A stretch of 64,000 bases of DNA from Salinibacterium sp. SWN248. Lineage in GTDB: Bacteria > Actinomycetota > Actinomycetes > Actinomycetales > Microbacteriaceae. The stretch's first letter is position 1, and every line of letters starts with the position of its first letter. The stretch is taken from assembly GCF_015864575.1 (NCBI RefSeq), contig NZ_JADYWW010000001.1, positions 1,449,719 through 1,513,718 on the forward strand. Direction: 5' to 3'. The notes under the pieces are model-generated. The model saw nothing but the letters and a program-made list of their open reading frames with translations. It was not told where the DNA came from and searched no databases. Both the position numbers and the translations under genes were made by a program. Positions 7,295-48,195 of this stretch are shown here, one piece after another.

Positions 7295-8839
7295 GTGGCA
7301 TCGTTCGTCGACCAGGTAACCCTTCATCTCCTAGCAGGCCATGGTGGCAATGGGTGTGTTTCGGTCAAGCGCGAGAAGTTCAAGCCTCTCGCCGGCCCCG
7401 ACGGTGGCAAGGGCGGTGACGGTGGAGACATCGTTCTCGTCAGTGACCCGCAGGTAACAACACTTCTTAATTACCACCGCTCACCGCACCGCAAGTCTCA
7501 GCACGGTCAGCCCGGTCAGGGTGACCACAAGGCGGGCACCGCCGGCGCAGAGCTGCTGGTTCCTGTTCCCGTCGGCACTGTGGTCCGTGATGCTTCCGGT
7601 GAAGTTCTCATCGACATGGATGCCCCGGGAATGCGACTGATCGTTGCTCCCGGTGGTCAGGGCGGACTCGGCAACGCTGCGCTGTCATCCACGAAGCGCA
7701 AGGCTCCTGGATTCGCGCTGCTCGGCACGCCTGGCTTTGAGGGCGATATTCACCTCGAACTCAAGACTGTTGCTGATGTCGCACTCGTCGGTTATCCCTC
7801 CGCGGGAAAGTCGAGTCTGATCGCCGCCATGAGCGCGGCTAAGCCCAAGATCGCTGACTACCCCTTCACGACTCTCCACCCCAACCTCGGTGTGGTTGAG
7901 TCTGGCGAGGTCCGCTACACGATCGCTGACGTTCCCGGTCTTATCGAGGGTGCCAGCGAAGGCAAGGGGCTCGGCCTCGAGTTCCTGCGCCACGTTGAGC
8001 GCTGTACTGCTCTGTTGCACGTCCTTGACTGTGCAACTTTGGAGCCCGGTCGCGACCCCATCACTGACCTCGATGTCATTCTTGGTGAGCTTGCGGCGTA
8101 TCCCGTTCCCGAGGGGCAGAAGCCTCTCCTGGAGCGCGAACAGATCATCGCCCTCAACAAGGTCGATGTTCCTGAGGGCAACGAACTTGCTGACATGGTC
8201 AAGGCTGAGCTCGAGGGCCGCGGTTACCGCGTCTTTGAAGTCTCGGCAGTCTCCCGCCACGGTCTCCGTGAACTTTCTTTCGCCTTGGCAGCACTCGTGC
8301 TCGCCGACCGTGAAGCCCGCATCTCTGAGCCGGCCAAGGAGCGCATTGTCTTGCGTCCCCGCGCCGTGAACGCGAAAGACTTCGCGGTCAAGGTCGAGGG
8401 TGGCACCTACGGCAACATCTACCGCGTGGTGGGCGATAAGCCCGAACGTTGGGTTGCCCAGACAGATTTCACCAACGAAGAAGCCGTGGGCTACCTCGCT
8501 GACCGTCTCGCACGCCTCGGCGTTGAAGACGATCTCTTCAAGGCGGGCGCTGTTCCCGGTTCTACCGTCATCATCGGTGCTGGCGGAGGCGTTGTCTTCG
8601 ACTGGGAGCCGACGTTGTCCTCTGCCGCAGAATTGATTGTCGCGCCGCGTGGTACTGACCCGCGACTCGACGACAACCCCCGCGAGACCAACCGCAGCCG
8701 CCGCCGCAACTACCTTGAGCGCATGGATGCCAAGGCCGCTGCACGTGCGGAGCTTGAGGGCGAGCGCGAAGCTGGCGTGTGGCAAGACGATGAAGGTTTC
8801 GCTATTCAGCGTGACGATGAGCCGGAGGATCGTGACTAA
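7295..8839 (+). CDS. obgE: Obg family GTPase
   Basis: A 514-residue essential GTPase in late 50S assembly and stress control. The N-terminal Obg fold is Gly-rich ([33 protein letters not shown]; residues ~15-50). The G domain follows, with the P-loop [10 protein letters not shown] (~165), switch [14 protein letters not shown]3 DVPGLIEGA and G4 NKVD. The C-terminal OCT domain is around residues 345-425 ([16 protein letters not shown]), then a charged tail ([20 protein letters not shown]). GTG start with AGGAGG 7 nt upstream. It overlaps proB by 8 bp. Confidence 0.97.
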
Positions 8840-9629
8840 CAAGCCCACCGTGCGCGCCGAGATTCCTCGTGCGCGCCGCATCGTTGTCAAAGTCGGCTCT
8901 TCGTCGGTGAGCGGTGCCAACGTGGGCCAGATCGGTGCTCTAGTTGATGCTCTCGTGTCAGCTCATGCCACCGGTTCTGAAGTCATTCTTGTATCATCCG
9001 GCGCAATCGCCACCGGCATCCCTTTCTTGAAATTGGATGGTCGGCCGACCGATCTCGCGACCCAACAAGCCGCGGCTGCCGTGGGCCAAAACGTGCTCAT
9101 CTACCGCTACCAAGAGAGCTTCGACCGCTACGGCGTTGTCGCCGCGCAAATCTTGTTGACGGCGGGGGACATGGAAAGCCCCACCCACCACAGCAATGCT
9201 CAGCGCGCGCTCGAACGGTTGCTTGGGCTGAAAATCCTGCCCATCGTGAACGAGAACGACACAGTCGCAACCCACGAGATCCGCTTTGGTGACAACGATC
9301 GCCTTGCCGCGCTCGTCTCGGTGTTGGTTCGAGCAGATGTGCTCGTGTTGCTGTCGGACATTGACGCGCTGTACACGAAGCCGCCGTCTGAGCCTGGAGC
9401 TGAGCGCATAGACGTGGTGTCGTTCGCGAATGACCTCAGCGATGTCACTTTTGGCGACATCGGTGCGGCTGGAGTCGGAACCGGAGGCGCGGGAACGAAG
9501 GTTGCTGCTGCCAAGCATGCTGCGGCGGCTGGCATCCCGGTATTACTCGCTGAAACAGGCAGCGTCGCTGCCGCTCTGGCGGGGGAGTCGATCGGGACCT
9601 GGTTCGAGGCAGACCCCGCCGCTCTGTAG
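8832..9629 (+). CDS. proB: Glutamate 5-kinase, short form without PUA domain
   Basis: First step of proline synthesis: phosphorylates glutamate to glutamyl 5-phosphate. GTG 8832 was chosen because GGAGG (8824-8828) precedes it, though the spacing is short; ATG 8817 is an alternative without a ribosome-binding site. Amino-acid-kinase motifs are [14 protein letters not shown] near the N-terminus, [31 protein letters not shown] and [20 protein letters not shown]. The 265-residue protein ends right after the kinase domain, so the C-terminal PUA domain of E. coli ProB is absent. The overlap with obgE links the two in translation. Confidence 0.92.
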
Positions 9630-9694
9630 CTGCCGCCGTAGTTTGCGCTGTAGTCATCGCCGCGTAACGTTCGAGTGGGGTGGATGAGCGCCGC

Positions 9695-9700
9695 TACACT
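9695..9700 (+). promoter_or_regulatory. -10 box TACACT, leaderless start of proA
   Basis: TACACT is followed by 6 nt (ctgatc) and ATG 9707. This supports ATG 9707 over the upstream in-frame GTG 9680. Confidence 0.6.
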
Positions 9701-9706
9701 CTGATC

Positions 9707-10975
9707 ATGGGTGATTCAGTAGCAACCGCGCTTTCTATTGACAACAAACTTCACGCCGCACGTGCCGCATCGCGCACTCTGGCGACCGTTACTACGGTGC
9801 AGAAGAATGCCGCGCTCGAAGCCATTGCGGCCGGTGTGGTTGCTCACGCCGACCGAATTGTTGAGGCGAACGCGCGAGACCTCGAACGTGGTCGCAGCAA
9901 CGGCATGACCGTGGGGCTCCAAGACCGACTTCGGTTGACCCCGGAACGAATCGCGCAGCTCTCTGCAGCAGTGCTCGAAATCGTTGAGCTTGCTGATCCG
10001 GTCGGCACCGTTGTGCGCGGCTCAGTACTGCCCAACGGGCTTTCGGTGGCGCAAACACGTGTGCCTTTTGGTGTCGTCGGGGCGATCTACGAAGCTCGAC
10101 CCAATGTCACGATCGATATCGCTGCCCTCGCGCTCAAGAGCGGTAACGCTGTGCTCCTTCGGGGTGGCTCGGCTGCCGAAGACTCCAACCGCGTGCTCGT
10201 AGAGGTTATTCAGTCTGCGTTGTCGAGCGTCGGCATCGACCCGGCATCCGTCCAGACCGTCGACGAATTTGGCCGCGAGGGGGCTAAAGCGTTGATGCAA
10301 GCCCGTGGCTTTGTCGATGTGCTGATTCCGCGCGGAAGCGCTCAGCTCATCCAGGCCGTCGTTACGGAGTCGACAGTTCCCGTGATCGAGACCGGAGCGG
10401 GAATCGTCCACATTTTCTTGGATGAGTCTGCCGACGAGACCACCGCGGTTGAGATCGTGCACAACGCGAAGGTTCAGCGACCCAGCGTCTGTAATGCGCT
10501 TGAGACACTCCTTGTGCACGAGGCCGCCGCTGAACGACTGATTCCTGCGGTGCTGGCGCGGTTGGCCGAGGCAGGCGTCACGATTCATGCTGATGAGCGC
10601 ACTCGCGAGCTGTTCCCGTCGGCAGAGATCGCCGACGCCGACGCGTGGTCAGTCGAGCACTTGAGTTTGGATGTCGCGGTGCGGGTCGTCGCCGACCTCG
10701 ATGCTGCGATCGAGCACATCGACGCCTACTCCACGAAGCACACGGAATCGATCATCACGAATGATCTCGCGAATGCGGATCGCTTCCTTGCAGAAGTGGA
10801 CTCCGCCGTGGTCATGGTCAATGCCTCCACCCGCTTTACCGACGGTGCGGAGTTTGGTTTCGGTGCCGAAGTGGGCATCTCGACCCAGAAGCTGCACGCG
10901 AGAGGCCCGATGGGGTTGCCGGAACTTACGAGCACCAAGTGGGTTGTGCGCGGCAGCGGTCAAGTCCGCGGCTAG
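9707..10975 (+). CDS. proA: Glutamate-5-semialdehyde dehydrogenase
   Basis: Second step of proline synthesis: NADPH-dependent reduction of glutamyl 5-phosphate. The 422-residue length is normal. Visible motifs are PFGVVGAIYEARPNVTIDIA, LALKSGNAVLLRGGSAAEDS for cofactor binding and VQRPSVCNALETLLVH, which carries the catalytic Cys. The C-terminal TEFGFGAE-like segment is present as GAEFGFGAEVGISTQKLHARG. It lies 77 bp after proB, and a leaderless promoter suggests partly independent expression. Confidence 0.96.
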   Translation: MGDSVATALSIDNKLHAARAASRTLATVTTVQKNAALEAIAAGVVAHADRIVEANARDLERGRSNGMTVGLQDRLRLTPERIAQLSAAVLEIVELADPVGTVVRGSVLPNGLSVAQTRVPFGVVGAIYEARPNVTIDIAALALKSGNAVLLRGGSAAEDSNRVLVEVIQSALSSVGIDPASVQTVDEFGREGAKALMQARGFVDVLIPRGSAQLIQAVVTESTVPVIETGAGIVHIFLDESADETTAVEIVHNAKVQRPSVCNALETLLVHEAAAERLIPAVLARLAEAGVTIHADERTRELFPSAEIADADAWSVEHLSLDVAVRVVADLDAAIEHIDAYSTKHTESIITNDLANADRFLAEVDSAVVMVNASTRFTDGAEFGFGAEVGISTQKLHARGPMGLPELTSTKWVVRGSGQVRG

Positions 10976-10978
10976 ACT
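10973..10978 (+). promoter_or_regulatory. -10 box TAGACT before the small membrane protein gene
   Basis: TAGACT overlaps the proA stop codon. Transcription would begin near 10985, giving a short leader with GGAG (10997-11000) 5 nt before ATG 11006. Confidence 0.45.
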
Positions 10979-11005
10979 GTTAGTGGTTTTGTGAATGGAG
11001 ATCTG

Positions 11006-11200
11006 ATGTCGATTTTTCTGAACGTTCTTGCGTCGAGCGAAGAGCTTGCGCCTCTCGTGCTGCCTGCACTTGCTTTCCCTCTCATTGCGGCGGTCGTGTT
11101 GACGACTCTCGGTTTCGTCACGTGGAGCTTCCGTGATGTTGCGAACCGTCATGTGGCTAAGCCGGCGAAGGCTGGCGACGCTCACGGCGCGGGCCACTAA
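11006..11200 (+). CDS. Small single-span membrane protein, unknown function
   Basis: A 64-residue protein starting MSIFLNVLASSEELAPLVLP. One hydrophobic segment (LPALAFPLIAAVVLTTLGFV) is followed by a positively charged C-terminal tail ending GDAHGAGH. ATG 11006 is preferred over GTG 10991 because of the GGAG site. Short proteins of this kind are commonly found between proA and nadD in related actinobacteria, but no function is established. It may be a membrane tether or subunit; nothing in the sequence decides this. Confidence 0.65.
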   Translation: MSIFLNVLASSEELAPLVLPALAFPLIAAVVLTTLGFVTWSFRDVANRHVAKPAKAGDAHGAGH

Positions 11201-11209
11201 GGCCTTTTT

Positions 11210-11812
11210 GTGACCGCCGAGACGGCGCCACGGCGCGAACGCATCGGCATCATGGGTGGAACCTTCGATCCCATCCACAACGGCCACCTTGTTGCGGCCA
11301 GTGAAGCTCAGCTTCAGTTCGACCTCGATCAGGTTGTGTTTGTTCCCACGGGTAAGCCGTGGATGAAGGACACCGTAACGTCGGGGGAGCACCGCTACCT
11401 TATGACGGTCATTGCGACCGCAGCGAACCCCGGCTTCAACGTCAGCAGGGTTGACCTCGAGCGTGAAGGTGCGACCTACACGATCGACACCCTGCGCGAC
11501 ATGCGCAAGACCTATCCTGACGCCGACCTTTTCTTCATTACGGGCGCGGATGCCGTGGCTCAAATCATGGAATGGAAGGACGTTGACGAGGTCTGGACAC
11601 TCGCCCATTTCATAGCAGTTTCACGGCCAGGACACGCCTTAACCATTAGTGGATTGCCTGAGCAGGGCGTAAGCTCGCTAGAAGTGCCGGCGCTTGCGAT
11701 CTCATCTACCGATTGCCGAAACAGGGTCAGTCGGGGTTACCCGGTCTGGTATCTGGTTCCGGATGGTGTCGTTCAGTACATCGCCAAGCACCACCTATAT
11801 CGGAGTATTTAA
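11210..11812 (+). CDS. nadD: Nicotinate-nucleotide adenylyltransferase
   Basis: Transfers AMP from ATP to nicotinate mononucleotide in NAD synthesis. The 200-residue protein has the nucleotidyltransferase motif [18 protein letters not shown] (residues ~13-30) with its catalytic HxGH. It also has the family C-terminal motif [16 protein letters not shown] start; TAAGGC lies 6 nt before it, a near match to the leaderless promoter pattern. The stop codon overlaps the next start by one base (TAATG). Confidence 0.95.
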
Positions 11813-13572
11813 TGACCACTTTTCACGATCCGCCGCCGCAGTCGCGACGTGCGGCGCGTCAGAGTGAGCGCACACACTCGTCCGACGAGCAGCCCACAGT
11901 TGAAGGATTCACCACCTTCCCGTCGCAAGCCGACGACACCGACACTTCTGACGTTAGCCACACACCTCGCAGTGCGCCCACCTCGCCGCCGGCAGCCCCG
12001 GTTTCGGCTCCTGTCGCACCGCCTGCCGCTTCTCAACCCGCCGCCGCCGCTTCATATCTGAATGCGCCGCCGCCCGCTGTCAGCGGCCAGAACAATTCCG
12101 CTCTCGCACTGCCTGCGCCTTCTGTTCCTACCGCGGCACCCGCAGCTTCCACCGCTGCCGACGTGAGCCAGTTGACGCGCCGTGAGTTGCGCGAACTGCG
12201 TGCTCGCGAAGAAGCCGCCAACGACACGACTGCTGCTCCCGTTGTTCCCGTCGTTTCACCGGCTCAGGCCGCGCCGACACAAGCTGCTGCTGCACCTGCT
12301 GCACCCACTCAGTCGGCGCCTGCGCCTGCTGCCTCGACTCCGCCGGTTGCTCCTACTGTTTCGGCGCCGGCTTCAGACGCGGCACCGGCTGCCGCAGCAC
12401 GTCCTAGCCTTGCCGATCTCGCTGCTGCCGCATCCGCTGCTGCCGTCGCTGAGTCAAAGCCGGCCAGAACAGCCGACGAACTCTCGTTCACGCCTGATGC
12501 CCAGGTCTACATTGAGCCGCCAGCACTGGTGGACCCTCTTGCTGTTGTTCCAGAAGCGGCTGCGGCCGCTGCGGCTCCCACGGATGCGCTCAGCGCCTTC
12601 GAGTCGCTCTTGGCTAACCCCGACGGTTCAGCCAAGGGCGCGACAACTCCCGCAGCTCCACGGTCTCCGCTCGCAGATCTTCCTGCACCCAGCGGTGCTG
12701 CCGTACCGAGCGCGAGTGCTGCGGGTGGCCCCGTCACCAAGGTGATGCCGGCTGCCACGCCCGAACAAGGTGCGAAGTCTGACTCGACTGCCGCGACTGC
12801 GAAGCCTGAACAGTCGACGCGTCCCACTGTTGAAGGCCTTCTCGGGTTCGACGCAGCGCCAGCGGCTACGAAGCCGCAAGCGTCGTCGACCCCGACCGGT
12901 TCGACTCAGACCACATTGAGCAATGCCCGAGCAGAGTTTGATGAGCTCGCGCGCAAACGTCTTGATGGCGACGTAGCTGCACCAGTGGCGACGACGAAGC
13001 CCCCCATCGCTCCCGTTGCGAAGCCGACGACTGCTCCTGCTGCACAAGCACCTGCTGCACAGGCTTCGGCAGCTCCCGCTGCGGCACCAGTTATTGCGGC
13101 ATCCGGTATTTCGATCGGACACTGGTCCAGCCAAGCAAAGGCGGACGACGAGACGAACAACGCGATCGTCACGCGCACCATCGGCAGCGGAAGCAGCGCA
13201 ACCAACGCTCTTGTCTTGCCAGCGATTCCGTTTGCTACCGACATCCGTGGTCCGCTGACCTCGAGTGGCGAAGCGATGCTCACCGGCTCAATCGACCTCC
13301 CGAGCACTCTCTCGGCGAGCGGCGTTTCTGACCGCTTCGACAAGGGCGACATTGACTCTCTCCTGGATCTCAACGACAGCGACATGGTGTCGACTGATTC
13401 GGCGCCCGTGCGCGCGGTCAAGGCCGTCAGCACCTTCTCCAACCAGTCCGTTACGCAGACGCAGAAACCCAAGGGCACGCGTGCTTTGACGGTACTGCTC
13501 ATCTCAGCAGCGTCGATGGCTGTTGTCGTGGCTGGGCTGCTCGTGGCGGCCTTCGCCTTCAACATGTTGTAG
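11812..13572 (+). CDS. Ala/Pro-rich C-terminally anchored membrane protein, unknown
   Basis: 586 residues from ATG 11812, which overlaps the nadD stop. About 400 residues are Ala/Pro/Ser/Thr-rich and look disordered. They include the short charged patch SQLTRRELRELRAREEAAN and a repeated phrase, PTVEGF/LLGF. The C-terminal third is more ordered and acidic (RFDKGDIDSLLDLNDSDM). A single hydrophobic segment (ALTVLLISAASMAVVVAGLL) closes the protein, so it is probably tail-anchored with the bulk in the cytoplasm. It lies between nadD and rsfS, but no function can be read. Low-complexity composition makes remote homology unreliable. Confidence 0.7.
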   Translation: MTTFHDPPPQSRRAARQSERTHSSDEQPTVEGFTTFPSQADDTDTSDVSHTPRSAPTSPPAAPVSAPVAPPAASQPAAAASYLNAPPPAVSGQNNSALALPAPSVPTAAPAASTAADVSQLTRRELRELRAREEAANDTTAAPVVPVVSPAQAAPTQAAAAPAAPTQSAPAPAASTPPVAPTVSAPASDAAPAAAARPSLADLAAAASAAAVAESKPARTADELSFTPDAQVYIEPPALVDPLAVVPEAAAAAAAPTDALSAFESLLANPDGSAKGATTPAAPRSPLADLPAPSGAAVPSASAAGGPVTKVMPAATPEQGAKSDSTAATAKPEQSTRPTVEGLLGFDAAPAATKPQASSTPTGSTQTTLSNARAEFDELARKRLDGDVAAPVATTKPPIAPVAKPTTAPAAQAPAAQASAAPAAAPVIAASGISIGHWSSQAKADDETNNAIVTRTIGSGSSATNALVLPAIPFATDIRGPLTSSGEAMLTGSIDLPSTLSASGVSDRFDKGDIDSLLDLNDSDMVSTDSAPVRAVKAVSTFSNQSVTQTQKPKGTRALTVLLISAASMAVVVAGLLVAAFAFNML

Positions 13573-13614
13573 GTTTAACTCTTTGCCTTCAGCTTTTTTC
13601 CGATTAAGGATCCT

Positions 13615-14007
13615 GTGACTGCTTCTCCTCGTGCCAACGAGCTACTTTCCATCGTCGCGAATGCCGCCGACGCCAAGCAGGCGACGGACATGGTTGCGCT
13701 CGACGTCACCGGTCCCATGCCGTATGCCGATATTTTCTTCCTCGCGACCGGTCGCAACGAACGTAACGTTCAGTCGATCGCCTCCGAGATCGAAGAGAAG
13801 ATGATCGCCGCTGGCGCTAAGCCATTGCGTCGCGAAGGCCGTGCTGAGGGTCGCTGGATCCTGCTCGACTTTGGCCACGTCGTTGCGCACATCTTCCATG
13901 AGGAAGACCGCCTCTACTACTCGCTCGAGCGCCTTTGGAGCGACTGCCCCGTCATCCCGATCACCATCACGCCTGTGGCAACAGACGCTGATGCTGATTC
14001 GGAGTAA
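13615..14007 (+). CDS. rsfS: Ribosomal silencing factor RsfS
   Basis: A 130-residue protein of the RsfS/Iojap family, which binds L14 on the 50S subunit and blocks subunit joining in starvation. Family hallmarks are VALDVTGPMPYADIFFLATG, RNVQSIASEIEEKM and the C-terminal WILLDFGHVVAHIFHEEDR and YYSLERLW. GTG start at 13615. Neighbourhood with nadD is the classical one. Confidence 0.95.
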   Translation: MTASPRANELLSIVANAADAKQATDMVALDVTGPMPYADIFFLATGRNERNVQSIASEIEEKMIAAGAKPLRREGRAEGRWILLDFGHVVAHIFHEEDRLYYSLERLWSDCPVIPITITPVATDADADSE

Positions 14008-14126
14008 CAAACTTCACACTTCGTAACCCAATTTGTGTGGGTTGCACCGTGCTGGTTTGCTTGTTTTAGCCGGGCAGTTCGACCCCGGGGCGACTCTCAC
14101 CAGTCACCTTCTCCCACTGGGGTTTC

Positions 14127-15116
14127 ATGATTACGCTTTCTTCCGTCACCAAGACCTTTGGTGATGCCGCGAATCCAGTTCGCGCCCTCGATGACGTGAG
14201 TCTCTCCGTCGCGAGCGGCGAGATCTTCGGAGTTATCGGCCAGAGTGGTGCGGGCAAGAGCACGCTCATCCGCACGGTCAATCTTCTTGAGCGTCCCGAC
14301 TCGGGAACGGTCACCGTTGCTGACCGCGAACTCACCGCGCTCAGCGACCGCGAACTGCTTCAGGCCCGTCGCGAGATCGGCATGGTCTTCCAGCAGTTCA
14401 ACCTGCTCGATAGCCGCACCGTTCGCGGGAACGTTGAACTGGCTCTTGAAATTGTGGGCGTTGAGCGTCGTCAGCGCACCGCACGCACGAATGAGATCCT
14501 CGAACTTGTTGGCCTTGAGCACAAAGCTCAGCAGTACCCGGCTCAGCTCTCGGGCGGTCAGAAGCAGCGCGTCGGTATTGCCCGGGCGTTGGCATCCCGC
14601 CCCCGGGTGTTGCTCAGCGATGAAGCGACGAGCGCGCTCGACCCCGAAACCACCGACTCGATCTTGCAGTTGCTGCGCAGCCTCAACAAAGAGCTGGGGC
14701 TCACGATTTTGCTCATCACGCATGAGATGGATGTTGTCAAAAGCGTCTGCGATTCTGCAGCGCTCATGAGCGGTGGCCGCATTCTCGAACATGGCCGTTT
14801 GGTCGATTTGCTGAGTCAACCGGGCTCGCAGCTGGCTCGTGGGCTCTTTCCGCTTGGCGAATTGCCCGAAGGAACCTCCACCGTTATCGACGTCACGTTC
14901 GTGGGCCTGTCTTCTGAGCGCCCCGTCGTGGCCCAACTGGCTAGAACTCATCACCTCGATGTTGGTCTGCTCGGCGCTGCGATGGAAACTATCGGAGGCG
15001 CACAGTCGGGTCGCACGCGCCTTGAACTGCCCGGCACCATCGAGCAGCACACCGCTGCGATTGATGACCTGCGCGCTCAGGGCCTCGTTGTTGAGATTGT
15101 GAGGAGCGGACGATGA
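14127..15116 (+). CDS. metN: Methionine ABC importer, ATP-binding protein
   Basis: A 329-residue ATPase that powers D/L-methionine uptake. Walker A is GQSGAGKST (residues ~38-46), the Q-loop is FQQFNLLDSRTV, the signature is LSGGQKQRVGIARAL, and Walker B is VLLSDEATSALDP, followed by the His loop LLITHEMD. The C-terminal ~90 residues form the NIL domain that binds methionine for feedback inhibition (VIDVTFVGLSSERPVVAQLA). It overlaps metI by ATGA. The 119-bp upstream gap shows no SAM riboswitch that I can recognise. Confidence 0.93.
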   Translation: MITLSSVTKTFGDAANPVRALDDVSLSVASGEIFGVIGQSGAGKSTLIRTVNLLERPDSGTVTVADRELTALSDRELLQARREIGMVFQQFNLLDSRTVRGNVELALEIVGVERRQRTARTNEILELVGLEHKAQQYPAQLSGGQKQRVGIARALASRPRVLLSDEATSALDPETTDSILQLLRSLNKELGLTILLITHEMDVVKSVCDSAALMSGGRILEHGRLVDLLSQPGSQLARGLFPLGELPEGTSTVIDVTFVGLSSERPVVAQLARTHHLDVGLLGAAMETIGGAQSGRTRLELPGTIEQHTAAIDDLRAQGLVVEIVRSGR

Positions 15117-41721: not shown

Positions 41722-44328
41722 GTGACTGAGCAGCCCAACTTTGCTGGTGCACACGACGACCGCGATGGTGCCTCGGACTACGATGTAGCCGCCATCCACG
41801 CCAAGTGGCAAGCCAAGTGGGAAGAGCTCAAGCCGTTCGCGACGAGCGACCCGGACGACAAGCGTCCGCGCAAGTACATTCTTGACATGTTCCCGTACCC
41901 CTCGGGCGACCTGCACATGGGCCACGCCGAGGCGTATGCCTTTGGTGACATCGCTGCACGCTACTGGCGTCAGCGCGGTTTCAACGTTCTGCACCCCATC
42001 GGCTGGGACTCCTTCGGTCTCCCCGCCGAGAATGCAGCCATCGAGCGCGGTATCGACCCTCGTGGCTGGACGTACGACAACATCGACCAGCAGAAGAAGA
42101 GCATGAAGCTCTACGGCGTCTCCTTTGACTGGGATCGCGTTCTGCACACGAGCGACCCCGAGTACTACAAGTGGAACCAGTGGTTGTTCCTCAAGATGTA
42201 CGAAAAGGGCCTCGCGTACCGCAAGGATTCCTGGGTCAACTGGGACCCGGTAGATCAGACTGTTCTCGCGAATGAGCAGGTTCTGGCTGATGGCACGTCC
42301 GAGCGTTCCGGCGCCGTCGTTGTCAAGAAGAAGCTCACGCAGTGGTACTTGAAGATCACCGACTACGCCGACCGTCTTCTCGACGACCTCAACCAGCTTG
42401 AGGGTGCGTGGCCGTCGAAGGTTCTCACGATGCAGCGCAACTGGATCGGCCGCTCGATCGGTGCGGATGTCGACTTCGAGATCGAAGGTCGTGACGAGAA
42501 GGTCACTGTCTTCACCACGCGCCCCGACACTCTCTATGGCGTGACCTTCTTGGTCGTCGCCCCCGACGGTGATTTGGCTGCTGAACTCGTGGAGAACGCG
42601 AGCGATGACGTGAAGGCGTCATTCGCTAGCTACCTCGAGCAGACTCAGAAGCAGACGGAGATTGAGCGCAAGGATGCCGGTCGCGAGAAGACCGGTATTC
42701 CTCTCGAGCGCTTCGCCATCAACCCGGTCACGGGCGAGCGCATCCCGATTTGGGCTGCCGACTACGTTCTGGCTGATTACGGTCACGGCGCGGTTATGGC
42801 TGTGCCTGCCCACGACCAGCGCGACCTTGAGTTTGCGATCAAGTTCGATCTTCCCGTGCGCGTTGTGCTCGACACGAATGCGCCGATCACTGGTCTGATT
42901 CCTGTCCTCGAGCTTGACGAAAACGGCATGGCTATCCTTCCGGATGATCTGCCGCCCTTGAACCCGCGCGAGACAGGCAAGTCGCTGCAGGGTGATGGCC
43001 GCATGATCAACTCGGGCCCTCTCGATGGTTTGAGCAAGAACAATGCGATCAAGAAGATCGTGGAGCAGCTTGAGGCTGCTGGCGCCGGTCGTGCTGCGAA
43101 GACGTACCGTTTGCGCGACTGGCTGATCAGCCGCCAGCGTTTCTGGGGAACCCCCATCCCGATCATCCACGGTTCGGATGGCGAGCTGATTCCGGTTCCC
43201 TTCGATCAGCTGCCTGTTGAACTGCCGTCGACGGAGGGTCTCGACCTGAAGCCGAAGGGCAAGTCGCCTCTCGCCGCCGCCGAAGACTGGATCAACGTTG
43301 AAGACCCGCGCGATGGCAGCCCAGCTCTTCGCGACGCTGACACGATGGACACGTTTGTCGATAGCTCGTGGTACTTCTTGCGGTTCTTGTCGCCGAACGA
43401 CTCTGAGCAGGCATTCGATCCCGCAGAAGCAGAGAAGTGGGCTCCGGTCGACCAGTATGTCGGTGGCGTTGAGCACGCGATCCTGCACTTGCTCTACTCG
43501 CGTTTCATCACCAAGGTGCTGTTCGACCTCGGCTACGTCAGCTTCACTGAGCCCTTCAGCGCGCTGCTGAACCAGGGCATGGTGCTGTCTGAGGGCAAGA
43601 AGATGTCGAAGCGCAGCCGCAAGGCTGTCACGTTCTCGGGCGAAATCGCCGAGCACGGTGCCGATGCGCTTCGTTTGACGCTGGCCTTCGCGGGCCCGCC
43701 CGAGGAGAACATCAACTGGGAAGACGTGTCGCCGGCGGCGTCACACAAGTTCTTGGCTCGCGCATTCCGTGTCGTGCGGGATGTCACGAGTGCTCCCGAG
43801 ATCGAGTGGAAGACGGGCGACACCACGCTGCGTCGCGCCACCCACCGCTTCCTCGCTGATGGCCCCGGCCTTGCCGAGTCGTTGAAGTTCAACGTTCTCG
43901 TTGCTCGCATCATGGATCTCGTCAATGTCACCCGTAAGGCCATCGACACCGGTGCTGGCGGCGGCGACGCTGCAGTGCGTGAAGCCGCCGAAGTCATCAC
44001 GATCGCCCTCAGCCTGTTCGCTCCGCACACGGCAGAAGAGATGTGGGAGAAGCTCGGCTACGAGCCCACGGTCGCTCTTGCCGGCTGGCGCAAGGCCGAC
44101 CCGGCGCTCCTCGTTGAGGAATCGGTGACGGCTGTGGTTCAGGTCGATGGCAAGGTCCGTGACCGCCTCGAGGTTTCGCCCAAGATTGCGGGTGCCGACC
44201 TCGAAGCTCTTGCCATGGCATCCGAAGCTGTCAAGCGCACCGTCGGTGACCGCGAGATCGTCAAGGTCATCGTGCGCGCTCCCAAGATCGTGAACATCGC
44301 GACTCGTCAACAGCCCACCGAAGGCTAA
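41722..44328 (+). CDS. leuS: Leucyl-tRNA synthetase
   Basis: An 868-residue class I synthetase. The HIGH motif appears as [16 protein letters not shown] (residues ~54-69) and KMSKS as [10 protein letters not shown] (~624-633). The CP1 editing domain (residues ~225-420) contains [12 protein letters not shown] and [19 protein letters not shown]. The C-terminal anticodon and tail domains are complete, ending [12 protein letters not shown] start; a 'gagag' site precedes it. The last ten codons are repeated ~3.2 kb downstream, next to comEA. Confidence 0.97.
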
Positions 44329-44352
44329 GCCACTCCACACGTTGCAACTAAG

Positions 44353-44379
44353 CGCGCTCCGAGCAATCGGGGCGCGTTT
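44353..44379 (+). terminator. leuS terminator (left repeat copy)
   Basis: CGCGCTCCGA / TCGGGGCGCG, 10 bp with one G-U pair, loop gcaa, then TTT. Confidence 0.7.
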
Positions 44380-44384
44380 AGTTT
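44379..44384 (+). promoter_or_regulatory. Duplicated comEA -10 box TAGTTT (left copy)
   Basis: TAGTTT, 6 nt (gtgcag), GTG 44391. Identical in layout to the promoter of intact comEA. Here it points into the inserted cassette and may drive it. Confidence 0.5.
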
Positions 44385-44390
44385 GTGCAG

Positions 44391-44447
44391 GTGGAAGAGT
44401 TTGAGCAGGCCCGTCAAGCGCGGCTACGCCCCCCCCCCCCCGTTTAG
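44391..44447 (+). pseudogene. 5' fragment of comEA, truncated at the poly-C tract
   Basis: GTG followed by EEFEQARQARLR, matching comEA codons 1-13 apart from Gln for Lys at codon 9. It then runs into four Pro codons made by the C-run, one Val and a stop. The rest of the gene is missing; the intact copy starts at 47605. Confidence 0.8.
44429..44441 (+). repeat. Poly-C tract (13 C)
   Basis: An uninterrupted run of 13 C exactly at the left boundary of the insert, immediately after the repeated segment. It lies within the comEA-fragment frame. Confidence 0.85.
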
Positions 44448-44488
44448 GGGTAGACAGCTCAGCAAAACCTGAGTTATTCTTCCAATGA

Positions 44489-44502
44489 TGGCCGGTTGGC
44501 CA
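44489..44502. promoter_or_regulatory. Short inverted repeat upstream of the peptide gene
   Basis: TGGCC-ggtt-GGCCA, two perfect 5-bp arms, 31 bp before the peptide gene's start. It could be an operator for a regulator encoded elsewhere, or a small RNA hairpin. No convincing -35/-10 pair was found next to it. Confidence 0.35.
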
Positions 44503-44533
44503 CGATCAATGTAGATCAAATTGGAGGAAGACA

Positions 44534-44626
44534 ATGGAAGAATTGGTCGCTCGAATCGAAAAGGACCACCTTGAAGCTTTAAAGCGCGTTGAGCTGGACT
44601 GCTGCTCAAACCCTGTCGCGACGTAG
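44534..44626 (+). CDS. Short peptide, candidate precursor of a modified natural product
   Basis: A 30-codon gene, missed by length cut-offs. ATG 44534 has a near-ideal ribosome-binding site (GGAGG at 44523-44527, 6 nt before it). The N-terminal 20 residues are charged and helix-prone, starting MEELVARIEK, like a RiPP leader. The last ten are LDCCSNPVAT, uncharged apart from Asp, with two adjacent Cys, Asn-Pro and a C-terminal Thr, like a core. A strong hairpin follows directly, then the putative tailoring and export genes. A plain small regulator or leader peptide is the main alternative. I know of no match. Confidence 0.65.
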   Translation: MEELVARIEKDHLEALKRVELDCCSNPVAT

Positions 44627-44634
44627 CAATAGTT

Positions 44635-44660
44635 GGGAGGGAGCGCTGACGCTCCCTCCC
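44635..44660 (+). terminator. Hairpin after the peptide gene, probable attenuator
   Basis: GGGAGGGAGCG / CGCTCCCTCCC, an 11-bp perfect stem with loop ctga, followed by atttgtt. It starts 8 bp after the peptide stop. Partial read-through would give much more peptide mRNA than mRNA of the next genes. Confidence 0.7.
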
Positions 44661-44695
44661 ATTTGTTCGCCGAGGGACCAATAAAGGGGAGAAGA

Positions 44696-45184
44696 TTGAT
44701 TAGCGAAACATACAAACGAACAGCTCTATCGCGGATCGAGGGCAGGCCCTCCGAGACGTTGGAGCGTCAGTTGGGCGAGTGCCTAAAGTACTTGGCAATC
44801 GTATCGATGACCGAGGGGAGGCGAATTCCAGTTACCCCAGAGGTCGACGACGTGTGGCATGAACTGCTGCTTCAAACAAGCAGCTATCGTCAGTTATGCG
44901 GCTCGCTGCCAGGAAAAAAGTTTCTGGATCACGAATCGATAGACCCACTCTCTTACAACGAGCGAGTGGGAGATGCAGCCTTCGTGCGGGAATGGGTCCA
45001 ATGGATTCCCGACTACGTACAAAGTTTCGGTCCTTTCACCGCTGAGGTAGCCCAAGATTGGAACGTTGTGCGATTTTTGCAGGATGAACTCGCAATGTCT
45101 CTAGACCAGATCAATGAATTTGGGGCAAATAGCGAAGCGATTGCCGTCGTACCACGAGATTCCCTGTGGTCCGCTCTTTCCTAA
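44696..45184 (+). CDS. GRDP/DUF1399-like protein, altered histidine motif
   Basis: 162 residues from TTG 44696, chosen because AAGGGGAG ends 4 nt before it; a longer frame would begin inside the hairpin. The segment IPVTPEVDDVWHELLLQTSS followed by YRQLC and GKKFLDHES resembles bacterial relatives of the plant glycine-rich-domain protein family. There the pattern is WHxHxLxT...FLHH. Here the second His of the first motif is Leu and the first His of FLHH is Asp, leaving His-Asp-His. These could bind metal (inference). The C-terminal ~70 residues are helical. Biochemical function unknown; the position suggests a modifying enzyme or peptide-binding partner. Confidence 0.6.
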   Translation: MISETYKRTALSRIEGRPSETLERQLGECLKYLAIVSMTEGRRIPVTPEVDDVWHELLLQTSSYRQLCGSLPGKKFLDHESIDPLSYNERVGDAAFVREWVQWIPDYVQSFGPFTAEVAQDWNVVRFLQDELAMSLDQINEFGANSEAIAVVPRDSLWSALS

Positions 45185-46458
45185 CGCGAGGAAGCCTTGC
45201 AGCGTTGGGCGCGTTTATTCCGAGCGTTCGTCCTGTCCTCATTCTTGGCATATTGGTCGTTTCTTACGACGCATCTGTGCAGACAGTGGTGGGTCTTACT
45301 GGAACCTACTTTGGGCTTGCTCTCGTCCTCGTGGCCGGTTTTACGGTTTCGGCGATCTTCCGACTATCTAGATTGAAGAACGAGAGCGTCGAAGCCCTCC
45401 GGGCTCCGATTACCGAAGAGTTTCGACTCGCGAGTGGTGCAGCGGTGTCGTTGGGGGTTTTTGCGGCCGCTGGTGGGTTTCTATTGCCACTCGTTCTCAG
45501 TGTCGACCCGGTCCTGTTTCGTACGTATTGGTTCGGGGCTGCGTTGTCGCTCCTAATCTTGCCGTTTTCAGCAACCCTCCTTGGGGTCTATCAGACTCGG
45601 AATCGTGATGGAGAAAACCTTGCAATTGCGGTAACGGCTGCGCTTTTTCAGGTTCTAGTTGCCGTCTCTGTCGTTGCAGCGGAACTATCTTCTTTGAACG
45701 CGGTCTTAGTCATTGGGGTGAGCGGGGTGGTTAGCGACGTGGGTGCTCTGGTTTATCGGCTCAAGCGTTTGGGATTCGAAGAGGGTACTACCCGCCTTGT
45801 TTTAGCGGATAGCGTGCGCCTTTTTGTCGCCAGTCCTATACATGCTATTCGTGAGTTGCCCAGTCGGCTGAAACCAGCGCTTGATGGTCTTGTGCTCATG
45901 ACAGTTTTCACTGTCGCGGGCACGGTCGCTGCAGCTAGCGGTCCGAGAGACGGAGCAGTTGTTGTGCTGGTGGTTGCGTTGATGCGGGCTGTAGTCATTC
46001 CGCTTAAGCAATTTGGATTGGTTGGAGGGCGACTTATCGCTCAAGCGGGAGGGACGCTGGCGGATGATCGGGCTAGATTCCTTCAGCTAACGGCGATAGC
46101 AACGGGGATCCTCGTATCAATTGCGGCGAGTCTATTAGTAGTTCGAGCCATAGCTACACCATTAAGCCTGATCCCTTGGATGATCGTTTCGATGATGGCG
46201 CTACAGCTTTGTATGGAGCCGGTCACAGGCTTCGGGTTTGGGGCGCAAAAAGTGCTGACATCCCCCACATTCGGCCTTAAGAGCCTCGTCGTTATTTCGT
46301 TGGGCTTGACCATTCCTGCGCTACTCACTCTTTGGCTGTTGGGCTTGGGATCCGCGGAATCCATCTGGGCGGTTGTATTTTTGGGAAGGCTAGTTTTCTT
46401 CTCGTCGCTCGTGATTAGGCTTGCAAACTTGTCATCAGCTTCACAGCTCAGAAGATGA
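45166..46458 (+). CDS. MATE/MOP-like polytopic membrane transporter
   Basis: A 430-residue protein with about 12 hydrophobic segments. GTG 45166 overlaps the preceding gene by 19 bp. The overall layout, two bundles of about six spans with a central loop near residue ~225 (AIRELPSRLKPALDGLVLMT), matches MATE drug exporters or polysaccharide flippases of the MOP superfamily. No short diagnostic motif exists, so the family call rests on topology and texture. Within the cassette it most likely exports the product. Its stop overlaps the aminotransferase start (ATGA). Confidence 0.65.
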   Translation: MVRSFLTRGSLAALGAFIPSVRPVLILGILVVSYDASVQTVVGLTGTYFGLALVLVAGFTVSAIFRLSRLKNESVEALRAPITEEFRLASGAAVSLGVFAAAGGFLLPLVLSVDPVLFRTYWFGAALSLLILPFSATLLGVYQTRNRDGENLAIAVTAALFQVLVAVSVVAAELSSLNAVLVIGVSGVVSDVGALVYRLKRLGFEEGTTRLVLADSVRLFVASPIHAIRELPSRLKPALDGLVLMTVFTVAGTVAAASGPRDGAVVVLVVALMRAVVIPLKQFGLVGGRLIAQAGGTLADDRARFLQLTAIATGILVSIAASLLVVRAIATPLSLIPWMIVSMMALQLCMEPVTGFGFGAQKVLTSPTFGLKSLVVISLGLTIPALLTLWLLGLGSAESIWAVVFLGRLVFFSSLVIRLANLSSASQLRR

Positions 46459-47462
46459 AAAGTCGAAAGGAGCAAGTATTCGCGTTGCCGCCGAAAGGTG
46501 TCTCCTTCGCATTGCCGAGTGAGGACTTTCCTGAAGAGCTGAAGAAGCAAGTCGCTAAGCGCATGGTAAGTCTCGAGTGGAACAAATACATAGATCCAGA
46601 ATTGAACAATGCGCGTCGGCAGCTTAGCGACGCTTTCGCGACCGCTCCAGAGTCTCTCATTTTTACCCATGGTTCAGATGACGCAATAGACAGAGTGGTC
46701 TCGGGCATGAAGCCAACCTTTGTCCTGCTGCCCCGTGGTGGTTACCCCGGATACTCGCGTTCTGCGGCCAGTTCGGGCTCGCGATCGCTGGTTTATCACC
46801 CTGAATCAACATCAGATGTGCTGGTCGGCATGCTTGAGGGTTGCGTTGGCACAACGCTGGTCTTTTTGTGTTGGCCAGGCAATCCACTAGGGAATTATGA
46901 TCAGCTCAATGGTTTGCGTGAAATCGTGGCCAACTCGGATCGTGTCGTCGTGGACCTCACATACCTAAATCCGTTGACAACGGAGTTCGTGGCTATTCTG
47001 CACGGGATCATTCAAGCTGGAGCCTGCGCGGCCTTCAGCTTCTCGAAAACACTCGGCCTCGCGTCTGCTCGTCTTGGGGGGATTGTGTTGCCCGAAGGGC
47101 ATCATGCAGTTCTTTCCCGCGGCGAACATTTCCCGTGGACTCTATTCCAGCTTTGCGCCTTAGAGACGGCTCTCTGCTCCGAACCGGAGACGAAGCAACT
47201 ACTCGCTCGAATGGTCACGAACCAGAAAAAAGTCAAGGCTGCACTCATTTCTTCTATCGAGGAAGTGGGCATTCCAGTGCGAAATGCAGATGCTGACAGC
47301 TTTCTAAGCGTCGACTTGGCGAGGCTAGCTGGGGGTGTCGAGGTCGGCACCTTGAAGTTCCCCGTCGGTTCGAAGCAATATCCTTCCCTTGACGTGTTGA
47401 GGCTTGACGTGTCGCAGGCGAACGTCTCTTGGATGCAACAGGTTAAGGCCGCGCTGACCTAA
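46455..47462 (+). CDS. HisC-like fold-type I PLP aminotransferase
   Basis: A 335-residue class I/II aminotransferase. AFSFSKTLGLASARLGG carries the PLP Lys in the SxxKxxGLxxxRxG form. CWPGNPLGN stands for the usual NPNNPTG loop and VVDLTYLNP for the PLP-contacting Asp and Tyr. The N-terminal arm is short. Nearest kin by texture are histidinol-phosphate and threonine-phosphate enzymes, but no histidine gene is near. In this cassette it may act on an amino acid or a peptide end. The overlap with the transporter implies one operon. Confidence 0.75.
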   Translation: MKSRKEQVFALPPKGVSFALPSEDFPEELKKQVAKRMVSLEWNKYIDPELNNARRQLSDAFATAPESLIFTHGSDDAIDRVVSGMKPTFVLLPRGGYPGYSRSAASSGSRSLVYHPESTSDVLVGMLEGCVGTTLVFLCWPGNPLGNYDQLNGLREIVANSDRVVVDLTYLNPLTTEFVAILHGIIQAGACAAFSFSKTLGLASARLGGIVLPEGHHAVLSRGEHFPWTLFQLCALETALCSEPETKQLLARMVTNQKKVKAALISSIEEVGIPVRNADADSFLSVDLARLAGGVEVGTLKFPVGSKQYPSLDVLRLDVSQANVSWMQQVKAALT

Positions 47463-47566
47463 TCGTTGTTCCTGGCGGCTTCACCTTGAAGGGAAGGTAG
47501 CGAGCAGGCGTGGGCGACTCGTCAACAGCCCACCGAAGGCTAAGCAAGTCCACACGTTCAACTCAG

Positions 47567-47593
47567 CGCGCTCCGAGCGATCGGGGCGCGTTT
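47567..47593 (+). terminator. leuS-type terminator, right copy
   Basis: The same 10-bp stem as at 44353, loop gcga. In its present place it would terminate the inserted operon. Confidence 0.65.
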
Positions 47594-47598
47594 AGTTT
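47593..47598 (+). promoter_or_regulatory. -10 box TAGTTT, leaderless start of comEA
   Basis: TAGTTT, 6 nt (gtgggg), GTG 47605. It overlaps the last base of the terminator hairpin region. Both repeat copies keep the spacing. Confidence 0.6.
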
Positions 47599-47604
47599 GT
47601 GGGG

Positions 47605-48195
47605 GTGGAAGAGTTTGAGCAGGCCCGTAAAGCGCGGCTACGGGTGCGCGTTGGCGCTGTCATCGTGGTGGTGCTCGTTGCGCTCGGCTGCGCCGTGCTC
47701 GCGACCGCACTCACAGGCAGCCCCACTGCCGTAGAGATTGCGCGCGGCGAACTGGGCTCGGGTGACGACGTGTTCGTGGTGGAATCGCCCGCGCTATTTG
47801 TGCACGTAACTGGGGCGGTGGTGCGCCCGGGGCTCTTCGAGCTGGCCGAGGGATCACGCGTGATCGACGCGATCGCTGCCGCTGGGGGTTTCACCGAAGA
47901 CGCGAAGCAGGATCAACTCAATCTGGCACGTGTGTTGACTGATGGAGAGCAGTTCGCCGTGCCCGCAGCTGGCGACGAGGCTGCCGCGGCCACGGCATCC
48001 GATGGACGAGTCAACCTGAATACCGCGGATGCCGCTGCCCTCGATACGCTGCCTCGTATCGGGCCCGCGATGGCCGCTCGCATTCTGGCATGGCGTGAGG
48101 CAAACGGGCGCTTCACGAGCATCGATGATCTGCGCAACGTCGCCGGAATCGGAGACGCTACCTTCGACGGGTTGCGCGACCTGGTCACGGTATGA
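47605..48195 (+). CDS. comEA: ComEA family DNA-binding competence protein
   Basis: 196 residues from GTG 47605. One N-terminal membrane span (GAVIVVVLVALGCAVLATAL) places the rest outside. An SLBB domain follows (LFVHVTGAVVRPGLFELAEG), then the helix-hairpin-helix pair RVNLNTADAAALDTLPRIGP and FTSIDDLRNVAGIGDATFDG. It binds incoming double-stranded DNA for uptake. It overlaps comEC by ATGA. The first 13 codons are also present in the left repeat. Confidence 0.93.
   Translation: MEEFEQARKARLRVRVGAVIVVVLVALGCAVLATALTGSPTAVEIARGELGSGDDVFVVESPALFVHVTGAVVRPGLFELAEGSRVIDAIAAAGGFTEDAKQDQLNLARVLTDGEQFAVPAAGDEAAAATASDGRVNLNTADAAALDTLPRIGPAMAARILAWREANGRFTSIDDLRNVAGIGDATFDGLRDLVTV

Follow-up and report, generated by a model that had tools for sequence, protein, structure and literature searches.

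A probable peptide-maturation cassette between leuS and comEA of Salinibacterium sp. SWN248, and related cysteine-peptide gene clusters

The genome of Salinibacterium sp. SWN248 carries an insert of about 3.1 kb between leuS and comEA that consists of four + strand genes. We analysed the 64,000-nucleotide window in which it lies (contig NZ_JADYWW010000001.1, positions 1,449,719 to 1,513,718; coordinates below are those of the window, where the site spans 44299-47642). A 30-codon peptide gene comes first, followed by genes for a GRDP-like protein, a multi-pass transporter and a HisC-like aminotransferase. The last three overlap, GRDP-like and transporter genes by 19 nt and transporter and aminotransferase genes by 4 nt (ATGA). 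The precursor peptide gene, MEELVARIEKDHLEALKRVELDCCSNPVAT (44534..44626, +), starts with ATG, has a Shine-Dalgarno sequence GGAGGA 5 nt upstream (44523-44528, +) and is conserved in five distinct loci. A terminator-like stem-loop with a T-rich tail (44634..44661, +) separates it from the enzyme genes, and its minimum free energy gives z = -4.5 against 200 dinucleotide shuffles. A preliminary description of this DNA had reported a short gene with a strong ribosome-binding site, a hairpin and three overlapping genes in an insert. Direct reading bears this out, although the stem measures 12 bp and not the 11 bp claimed.

The same association of peptide, GRDP-like protein and aminotransferase occurs in other genomes. 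With the transporter it forms a four-gene set, here called type I, which we found in six genomes at five distinct loci. A contig search with the GRDP-like protein returned 42 pattern stretches, three of which were confirmed, in Curtobacterium pusillum (L002), Zimmermannella alba (L003) and Curtobacterium sp. ISL-83 (L004). Among the 398 genomes of the family sample (presumably Microbacteriaceae, to judge by the named relatives) the protein was matched at E <= 1e-6 in four: the window's own, G200 (taken as Z. alba), G327 (locus L010) and G447 (locus L009). L002 and L004 were counted as one locus. All type I loci have a short peptide gene just upstream of the GRDP-like gene and the aminotransferase and transporter genes downstream of it, the arrangement that the preliminary description had put forward for a search. 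The transporter precedes the aminotransferase in the window and L010; the aminotransferase comes first in L002, L003, L004 and L009. The type I system is rare and patchy. The order sample and the phylum sample each held the GRDP-like protein in 2 of 396 genomes, one being the window's own and the other that of a distant relative, and within the genus of G327 it was present in one of seven genomes, G327 itself. Plasmid-borne relatives were found neither for the GRDP-like protein of the window nor for that of L051, a type II locus described below, and none of 193 pattern stretches from viral contigs was confirmed.

The type I peptides are MEELVARIEKDHLEALKRVELDCCSNPVAT in the window, MEKLIEEIRREHLDALRAVDLDCCSNMTAV in L003, MQEIAEAIKAQHIERLKEVHMDCCAEVE in both L002 and L004, MEKLIEQIKNEKLAEIRAVEMDCCAEVT in L009 and MELLIDRILDRHFDALRNHAQSCCGGAPSPGPDQ in L010. 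They span 28-34 codons, and M1, I8 and a Cys-Cys pair are invariant in all five. The Cys-Cys pair is the invariant feature of the core, which the preliminary description missed. Four of the five share an N-terminal leader of the form ME-x-L-[I/V]-x2-I. The tail after Cys-Cys is very short and variable, and the last residues are T, V, E, T and Q, so the C-terminal Thr of the window peptide is unconserved. When hidden Markov models built from four peptides were run against the 20-80 aa open reading frame (ORF) variants of the locus of the fifth, the held-out peptide ranked first in its own locus in all five cases (window, E 1.9e-11, 2359 variants; L003, 1.9e-15, 411; L002, 7.5e-8, 337; L009, 1.7e-11, 473; L010, 0.0046, 457; L004, a duplicate of L002, was excluded). 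Over six pairs of peptide genes the proportion of synonymous differences (pS) was 0.61-0.88 and that of non-synonymous differences (pN) 0.21-0.39, with few sites behind each value. Purine-rich ribosome-binding stretches precede the type I peptide genes, as judged by eye. The short gene on which the earlier proposal depended is thus conserved. Hairpins of differing sequence also follow the peptide stop codon elsewhere (z = -4.5 in L003, -3.5 in L002, -3.7 in L009, and -3.9 in L048, a further cluster described below). By sequence, the locus has the features of a ribosomally synthesised and post-translationally modified peptide (RiPP) system: an encoded precursor with a conserved leader and a Cys/Ser/Thr core, with candidate modifying enzymes beside it in several genomes.

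The GRDP-like protein (44696..45184, +; TTG start, picked by comparison with relatives) is the proposed Cys-peptide maturation protein. It has about 160 residues and is 42-53% identical to five other type I sequences. Invariant in 31 relatives, 27 close and four distant, are L32, D50, W53, H54, T60, Y63, C67, H78 and W121. D50, H54, C67 and H78 may form a metal site, and this invariant Asp/His/Cys/His set suggests a metal-dependent oxidative reaction. The name given in the preliminary description has fared less well. The D-x2-W-H ... Y-x3-C motif may resemble the signature of plant GRDP, but PF07173 had no match in 10 genomes, 14 control genomes being equally silent. Pfam returned no family for the window protein or its relatives in L002, L003, L009 and L010, and GRDP as a Pfam family for this protein was not confirmed. 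A sequence search of the PDB matched no solved structure (best E 0.1).

The HisC/CobD-like pyridoxal phosphate (PLP) aminotransferase (46455..47462, +) is better placed. It matches PF00155 at E 6.4e-13, in support of the HisC-like label it had been given, and the profile of PDB entry 3p1t at E 4.5e-17. TIGR01141 matches at E 9.3e-18 but far under its cut-off, the hisC and CobD models both being below cut-off. D167, K198, R206 and R316 are invariant in all six type I aminotransferases and, by analogy with fold-type I enzymes, presumably make the PLP and carboxylate contacts. At E <= 1e-20 the enzyme was found in one of 99 relatives, the window's own genome.

The transporter (45166..46458, +), the proposed exporter and means of self-protection, is 24-35% identical to its relatives. 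It had been called MATE-like; Pfam, including the MATE family PF01554, was silent on all six type I transporters, and the name now rests on a low-confidence fold match. The PDB sequence search gave no match for it. Given a low-confidence model (predicted local distance difference test, pLDDT, 44), Foldseek found 126 matches with E <= 10; the best had E 8.4e-3, and none lay at E <= 0.001. The first 42 are by title nearly all MATE, MurJ, Wzx and other MOP-superfamily proteins, the title at rank 39 being uninformative. Aligning the type I transporter family with the MATE protein of L048 by hhalign gave a probability of 0.05%, which is no support. We take the cassette transporter as MOP-like, which is not proven.

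The GRDP-like protein is not confined to type I loci. It is common to differently built Cys-peptide clusters, which the preliminary description had missed. A class search of 296 genomes, with a GRDP-like profile from six sequences, matched 36 genomes at E <= 1e-3; those below 1e-36 were the window's own, G1319, G1375, G1367, G1390 and G1372. The last four, with 17 more genomes of the G1375 genus, hold the 21 type II loci (L049-L052, L076-L092), 20 in one Streptomyces-like genus and the last, that of G1372, in a different family. Upstream in 20 of the 21 lies a precursor such as MEQLIKKMAQDEVWQGWLAANSAQQAAKDGCISAAPKSGCISVAKKTGCIS, which carries two to four GCIS-type repeats (the final one GRIS in L089) and a leader similar to that of type I, and an adenylating-ligase-like protein adjoins the GRDP-like protein in the same number. 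The exception on both counts is L087, which starts at a contig edge. A relative of major facilitator superfamily transporters is encoded in 13 of the 21. The name of the ligase-like protein rests on sub-cut-off AMP-ligase matches and on motifs seen by eye: Pfam matched none of the three tested, and for that of L051 NCBIfam gave AMP-ligase models only, far under cut-off (best 5.4e-8). In L086 (4789-6507) the ligase query and the GRDP profile match a single ORF of 572 aa, which looks like a natural ligase/GRDP fusion. A matrix of residues 2-8 from eight type II leaders ranked the type I peptides 1, 2, 5, 7 and 2433 among 2798 ORF variants. In a sample of the G1375 genus centred on a known carrier, 18 of 121 genomes have a close GRDP-like relative and 17 of these 18 the repeat precursor, so the type II pathway may be common and overlooked.

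The third cluster type is L048 (G1319, 7394-14161). Its peptide has 34 residues, with a single Cys close to the end, and is encoded together with a GRDP-like protein, a PF00155 aminotransferase, a flavin adenine dinucleotide (FAD) monooxygenase, a B12 radical S-adenosylmethionine (SAM) enzyme and a MatE (PF01554) transporter. The radical SAM enzyme passes TIGR03975, a RiPP C-methyltransferase model, with 613.7 bits against a cut-off of 281.85.

Distant relatives of the GRDP-like protein served as a specificity control. It comprised 41 distinct loci, all 39 weak matches of the class search and one each from the order and phylum samples (460 kb, 14277 ORF variants; three of the loci with less than 2 kb upstream). 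No peptide-model match in them was better than E 0.57, and neither a ligase (E <= 1e-20) nor an aminotransferase (E <= 1e-10) turned up. A narrower control of 26 distinct loci, many with about 1.5 kb upstream, which is short for type II spacing, gave the same result. At close-relative loci a peptide model matched in 26 of 28 (6 type I, 20 type II), a proportion that is in part built in, as the models contain five of the type I and seven of the type II peptides. Of the 20 matched type II peptides, 7 lie inside the type II model and 13 outside. The two misses are L048, whose peptide is unlike both models, and the truncated L087. Three distant relatives with Cys-rich C-termini (L053, L054, L056) adjoin, by eye, APH-like kinase genes and have no Cys peptide, and the wider GRDP-like superfamily may thus have another role.

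The insert itself is bounded by a direct duplication, about 130 bp long, that takes in the 3' end of leuS, the intergenic DNA and the beginning of comEA. Its left copy (leuS tail, intergenic, comEA head; 44299..44428, +) and right copy (leuS tail, comEA head; 47514..47642, +) align with 94% identity across 84 nt and 96% across 45 nt. Directly after the left copy, 13 consecutive C (44429-44441, +) mark the left junction. A weak sigma-70-like promoter match (44451..44480, +) agrees at 9 of 12 positions; the consensus scan found one where 0.1 were expected, which is not evidence of function. The leuS end was present in all 27 searched genomes of the genus, and in 21 of the other 26 leuS is followed directly by comEA; this is our own tally, with comEA starts extrapolated where the alignment begins inside the protein. 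The leuS-comEA junction resembles an insertion hot spot, with other DNA in five of the 26 congeners (G001, G016, G002, G007 and G018; L123, L124-L127). G016 has, by eye, a transposase-bearing insert and a second leuS/comEA copy; G002, G007 and G018 have about 0.9 kb of other DNA. The leuS-tail/comEA-head duplication recurs in two congeners, G001 and G016. PADLOC matched none of the three cassette proteins, and an anti-phage defence reading was rejected.

At this site G001 (L123:832-2151) encodes a 440-aa relative of the cassette transporter, 42% identical to it and bounded by the same duplicated sequence as the window insert. For the other three cassette genes, those of the peptide, the GRDP-like protein and the aminotransferase, a six-frame search of the site gave nothing significant (best E 0.04). 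At E <= 1e-20 the transporter family was found in only the window's genome (G000) and G001 among 119 relatives. This solitary exporter has the look of an immunity gene that has outlived its pathway. Loss and separate acquisition are equally likely, however, because the flanking DNA of the two genomes is 91% identical on the leuS side and 81% on the comEA side, the transporter proteins only 42%. The lone transporter gives a handle on whether the exporter is an immunity factor.

A conserved peptide and gene set, a GRDP-like protein that recurs across three cluster types and, in one of these, a curated RiPP enzyme are what we observe. It seems likely, if well short of certain, that the window cassette is a small RiPP-like biosynthetic system and a member of an undescribed RiPP-like family. 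The central proposal of the preliminary description, a minimal RiPP-like system, is thus supported, as the association recurs and the short gene is conserved, but profile searches do not confirm its GRDP and MATE names. More tentatively, and a little short of an even chance, the GRDP-like proteins could be the founding leader- and metal-dependent Cys-modifying enzymes of an undescribed RiPP class, common to type I, the GCIS-repeat/ligase clusters and the C-methylated L048 peptide. There is a fair chance that the RiPP class is new. We found no paper that describes the gene set, precursors with GCIS repeats or a RiPP protein of the GRDP-like kind, which is weak evidence, most subscription journals and all preprints lying outside the coverage of the search.

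In such a pathway the hairpin would probably keep the peptide in excess over the enzymes. The N-terminal leader would be recognised by the GRDP-like protein, a probable leader-dependent maturation protein, which may act on the core cysteine or present it, with metal-dependent oxidation as the candidate reaction. A host protease would then remove the leader, none being seen in the cassette. The HisC-like aminotransferase may act on one end of the peptide, the simplest choice being the newly exposed N-terminus, as has been proposed for MbnN in methanobactin, and the MATE-like protein would export the product and protect the producer. Because a GRDP-like family of unassigned function is the constant partner of short Cys peptides in three cluster types, its chemistry is testable by two-gene co-expression.

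Several points weigh against this picture. The pathway is known here from genes alone, and each of its biochemical steps is a reading of them. No Pfam, NCBIfam or PDB match informs the function of the GRDP-like protein, and its predicted structure is poor, with a mean pLDDT of 54.6. In the cassette we saw no gene for a leader peptidase, and L010 has no hairpin after the peptide stop (z -0.9). The L002/L004 leader, the one ranked 2433 of 2798, is unlike that of type II. The partner enzymes of types I and II differ, so the idea of a shared reaction leans on the GRDP-like protein and cysteine alone. The L048 peptide was matched by neither peptide model and is known from one locus: among 120 genomes of the family, the cluster occurs in its own genome alone. 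Identity between the aminotransferases of the window and L048 is just 22%, so kinship beyond the HisC superfamily is unsupported.

The alternative that survives best, though still unlikely, is that the peptide is a sacrificial scaffold on which a small metabolite is built, at the Cys at the C-terminal end, then released and exported. Pathways of the 3-thiaglutamate type build a small metabolite on a scaffold peptide in this way. The very short, variable tail after Cys-Cys would suit it, as would a cassette in which no protease was seen. A HisC/CobD-like enzyme also suits a free amino acid with an alpha-carboxylate, which the invariant R316 of the six type I enzymes may contact. However, no peptide aminoacyl-tRNA ligase was present among the scanned window proteins, the other loci being read by eye only, and the tandem GCIS repeats of type II resemble multiple peptide cores.

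We think it rather less probable that the product is a methanobactin analogue in the strict sense, a peptide that binds Cu(I) and in which a protein unrelated to MbnB and MbnC would convert X-Cys pairs to oxazolone and thioamide. Gene order and gene kinds match those of Methylosinus (peptide, maturation, MATE, PF00155 transaminase), as given in PMC3621798, and L048 has an FAD enzyme and a MATE transporter. Set against this, none of the four cassette genes matches MbnB or MbnC, no importer was seen, and the peptide has a single adjacent Cys pair.

It is improbable that the short ORF serves in regulation, as a leader peptide on whose two Cys codons ribosomes would stall when cysteine is scarce and so govern read-through past the hairpin into a downstream cysteine-related operon. 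Poly-Cys attenuator ORFs occur in mycobacteria, and the consecutive Cys codons do stand shortly before a terminator-like hairpin. The term polycysteine appears twice in a 2026 paper on attenuation (PMC13236596). Between the Cys codons (44600-44605) and the stem lie 28 nt, however, so a stalled ribosome would hardly cover it. Amino acid conservation extends over the whole peptide even as the DNA diverges (pS > pN in six pairs), L010 lacks the hairpin, GCIS-repeat precursors accompany the same protein family in type II, and Rfam has no match within 44300-47700. That the peptide is a chance ORF beside unrelated metabolic genes is scarcely credible: ORFs of such length are common (138 of at least 28 aa in the six-frame list for 12 kb around it), but conservation in five loci, first rank in each leave-one-out test, the purine-rich stretches and the type II parallel refute it as far as sequence can.

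The RiPP-like reading can be set beside known systems. The cassette protein differs from plant GRDP (DUF1399, PF07173), having no profile match, no glycine-rich domain and only about 160 residues. Like a daptide cluster, the cassette pairs a short peptide with an aminotransferase, and Thr is, by coincidence, the last residue of the window peptide. In daptides a C-terminal Thr is the sole strict substrate requirement and the aminotransferase is class III, PF00202, according to PMC12670281. The comparison fails because the Thr is unconserved in type I; the cassette enzyme, moreover, is PF00155, and no alcohol dehydrogenase was present among the window proteins. The daptide reading, already doubted in the preliminary description, was rejected on these grounds more firmly than before. 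RiPPs of the TIGR03975 kind share with L048 the radical SAM C-methyltransferase, encoded there two genes after the GRDP-like/aminotransferase pair. That enzyme is absent from the window cassette, and reading the remaining type I loci by eye revealed none.

Methanobactin operons come closest. In Methylosinus a Cys precursor and the core maturation gene or genes are followed by a MATE exporter and then a PF00155 HisC/CobD-like transaminase, and transaminases are rare in mbn operons, three being counted (PMC3621798). The window cassette follows the same order of short Cys precursor, putative maturation gene, putative exporter and transaminase. In the exporter/transaminase pair PF00155 is present and MATE is represented by a low-confidence fold match alone. 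Some mbn operons include FAD oxidoreductases, and L048 also encodes one. The transaminase, rare in mbn, is constant in type I. The type I peptide has one adjacent Cys-Cys, and no TonB importer was seen in the cassette. In place of MbnB (DUF692) and MbnC, for which the four insert genes were scanned, stands the unrelated GRDP-like protein. Because MbnB and MbnC are missing, the cassette is not a member of the methanobactin operons, but it would work like one.

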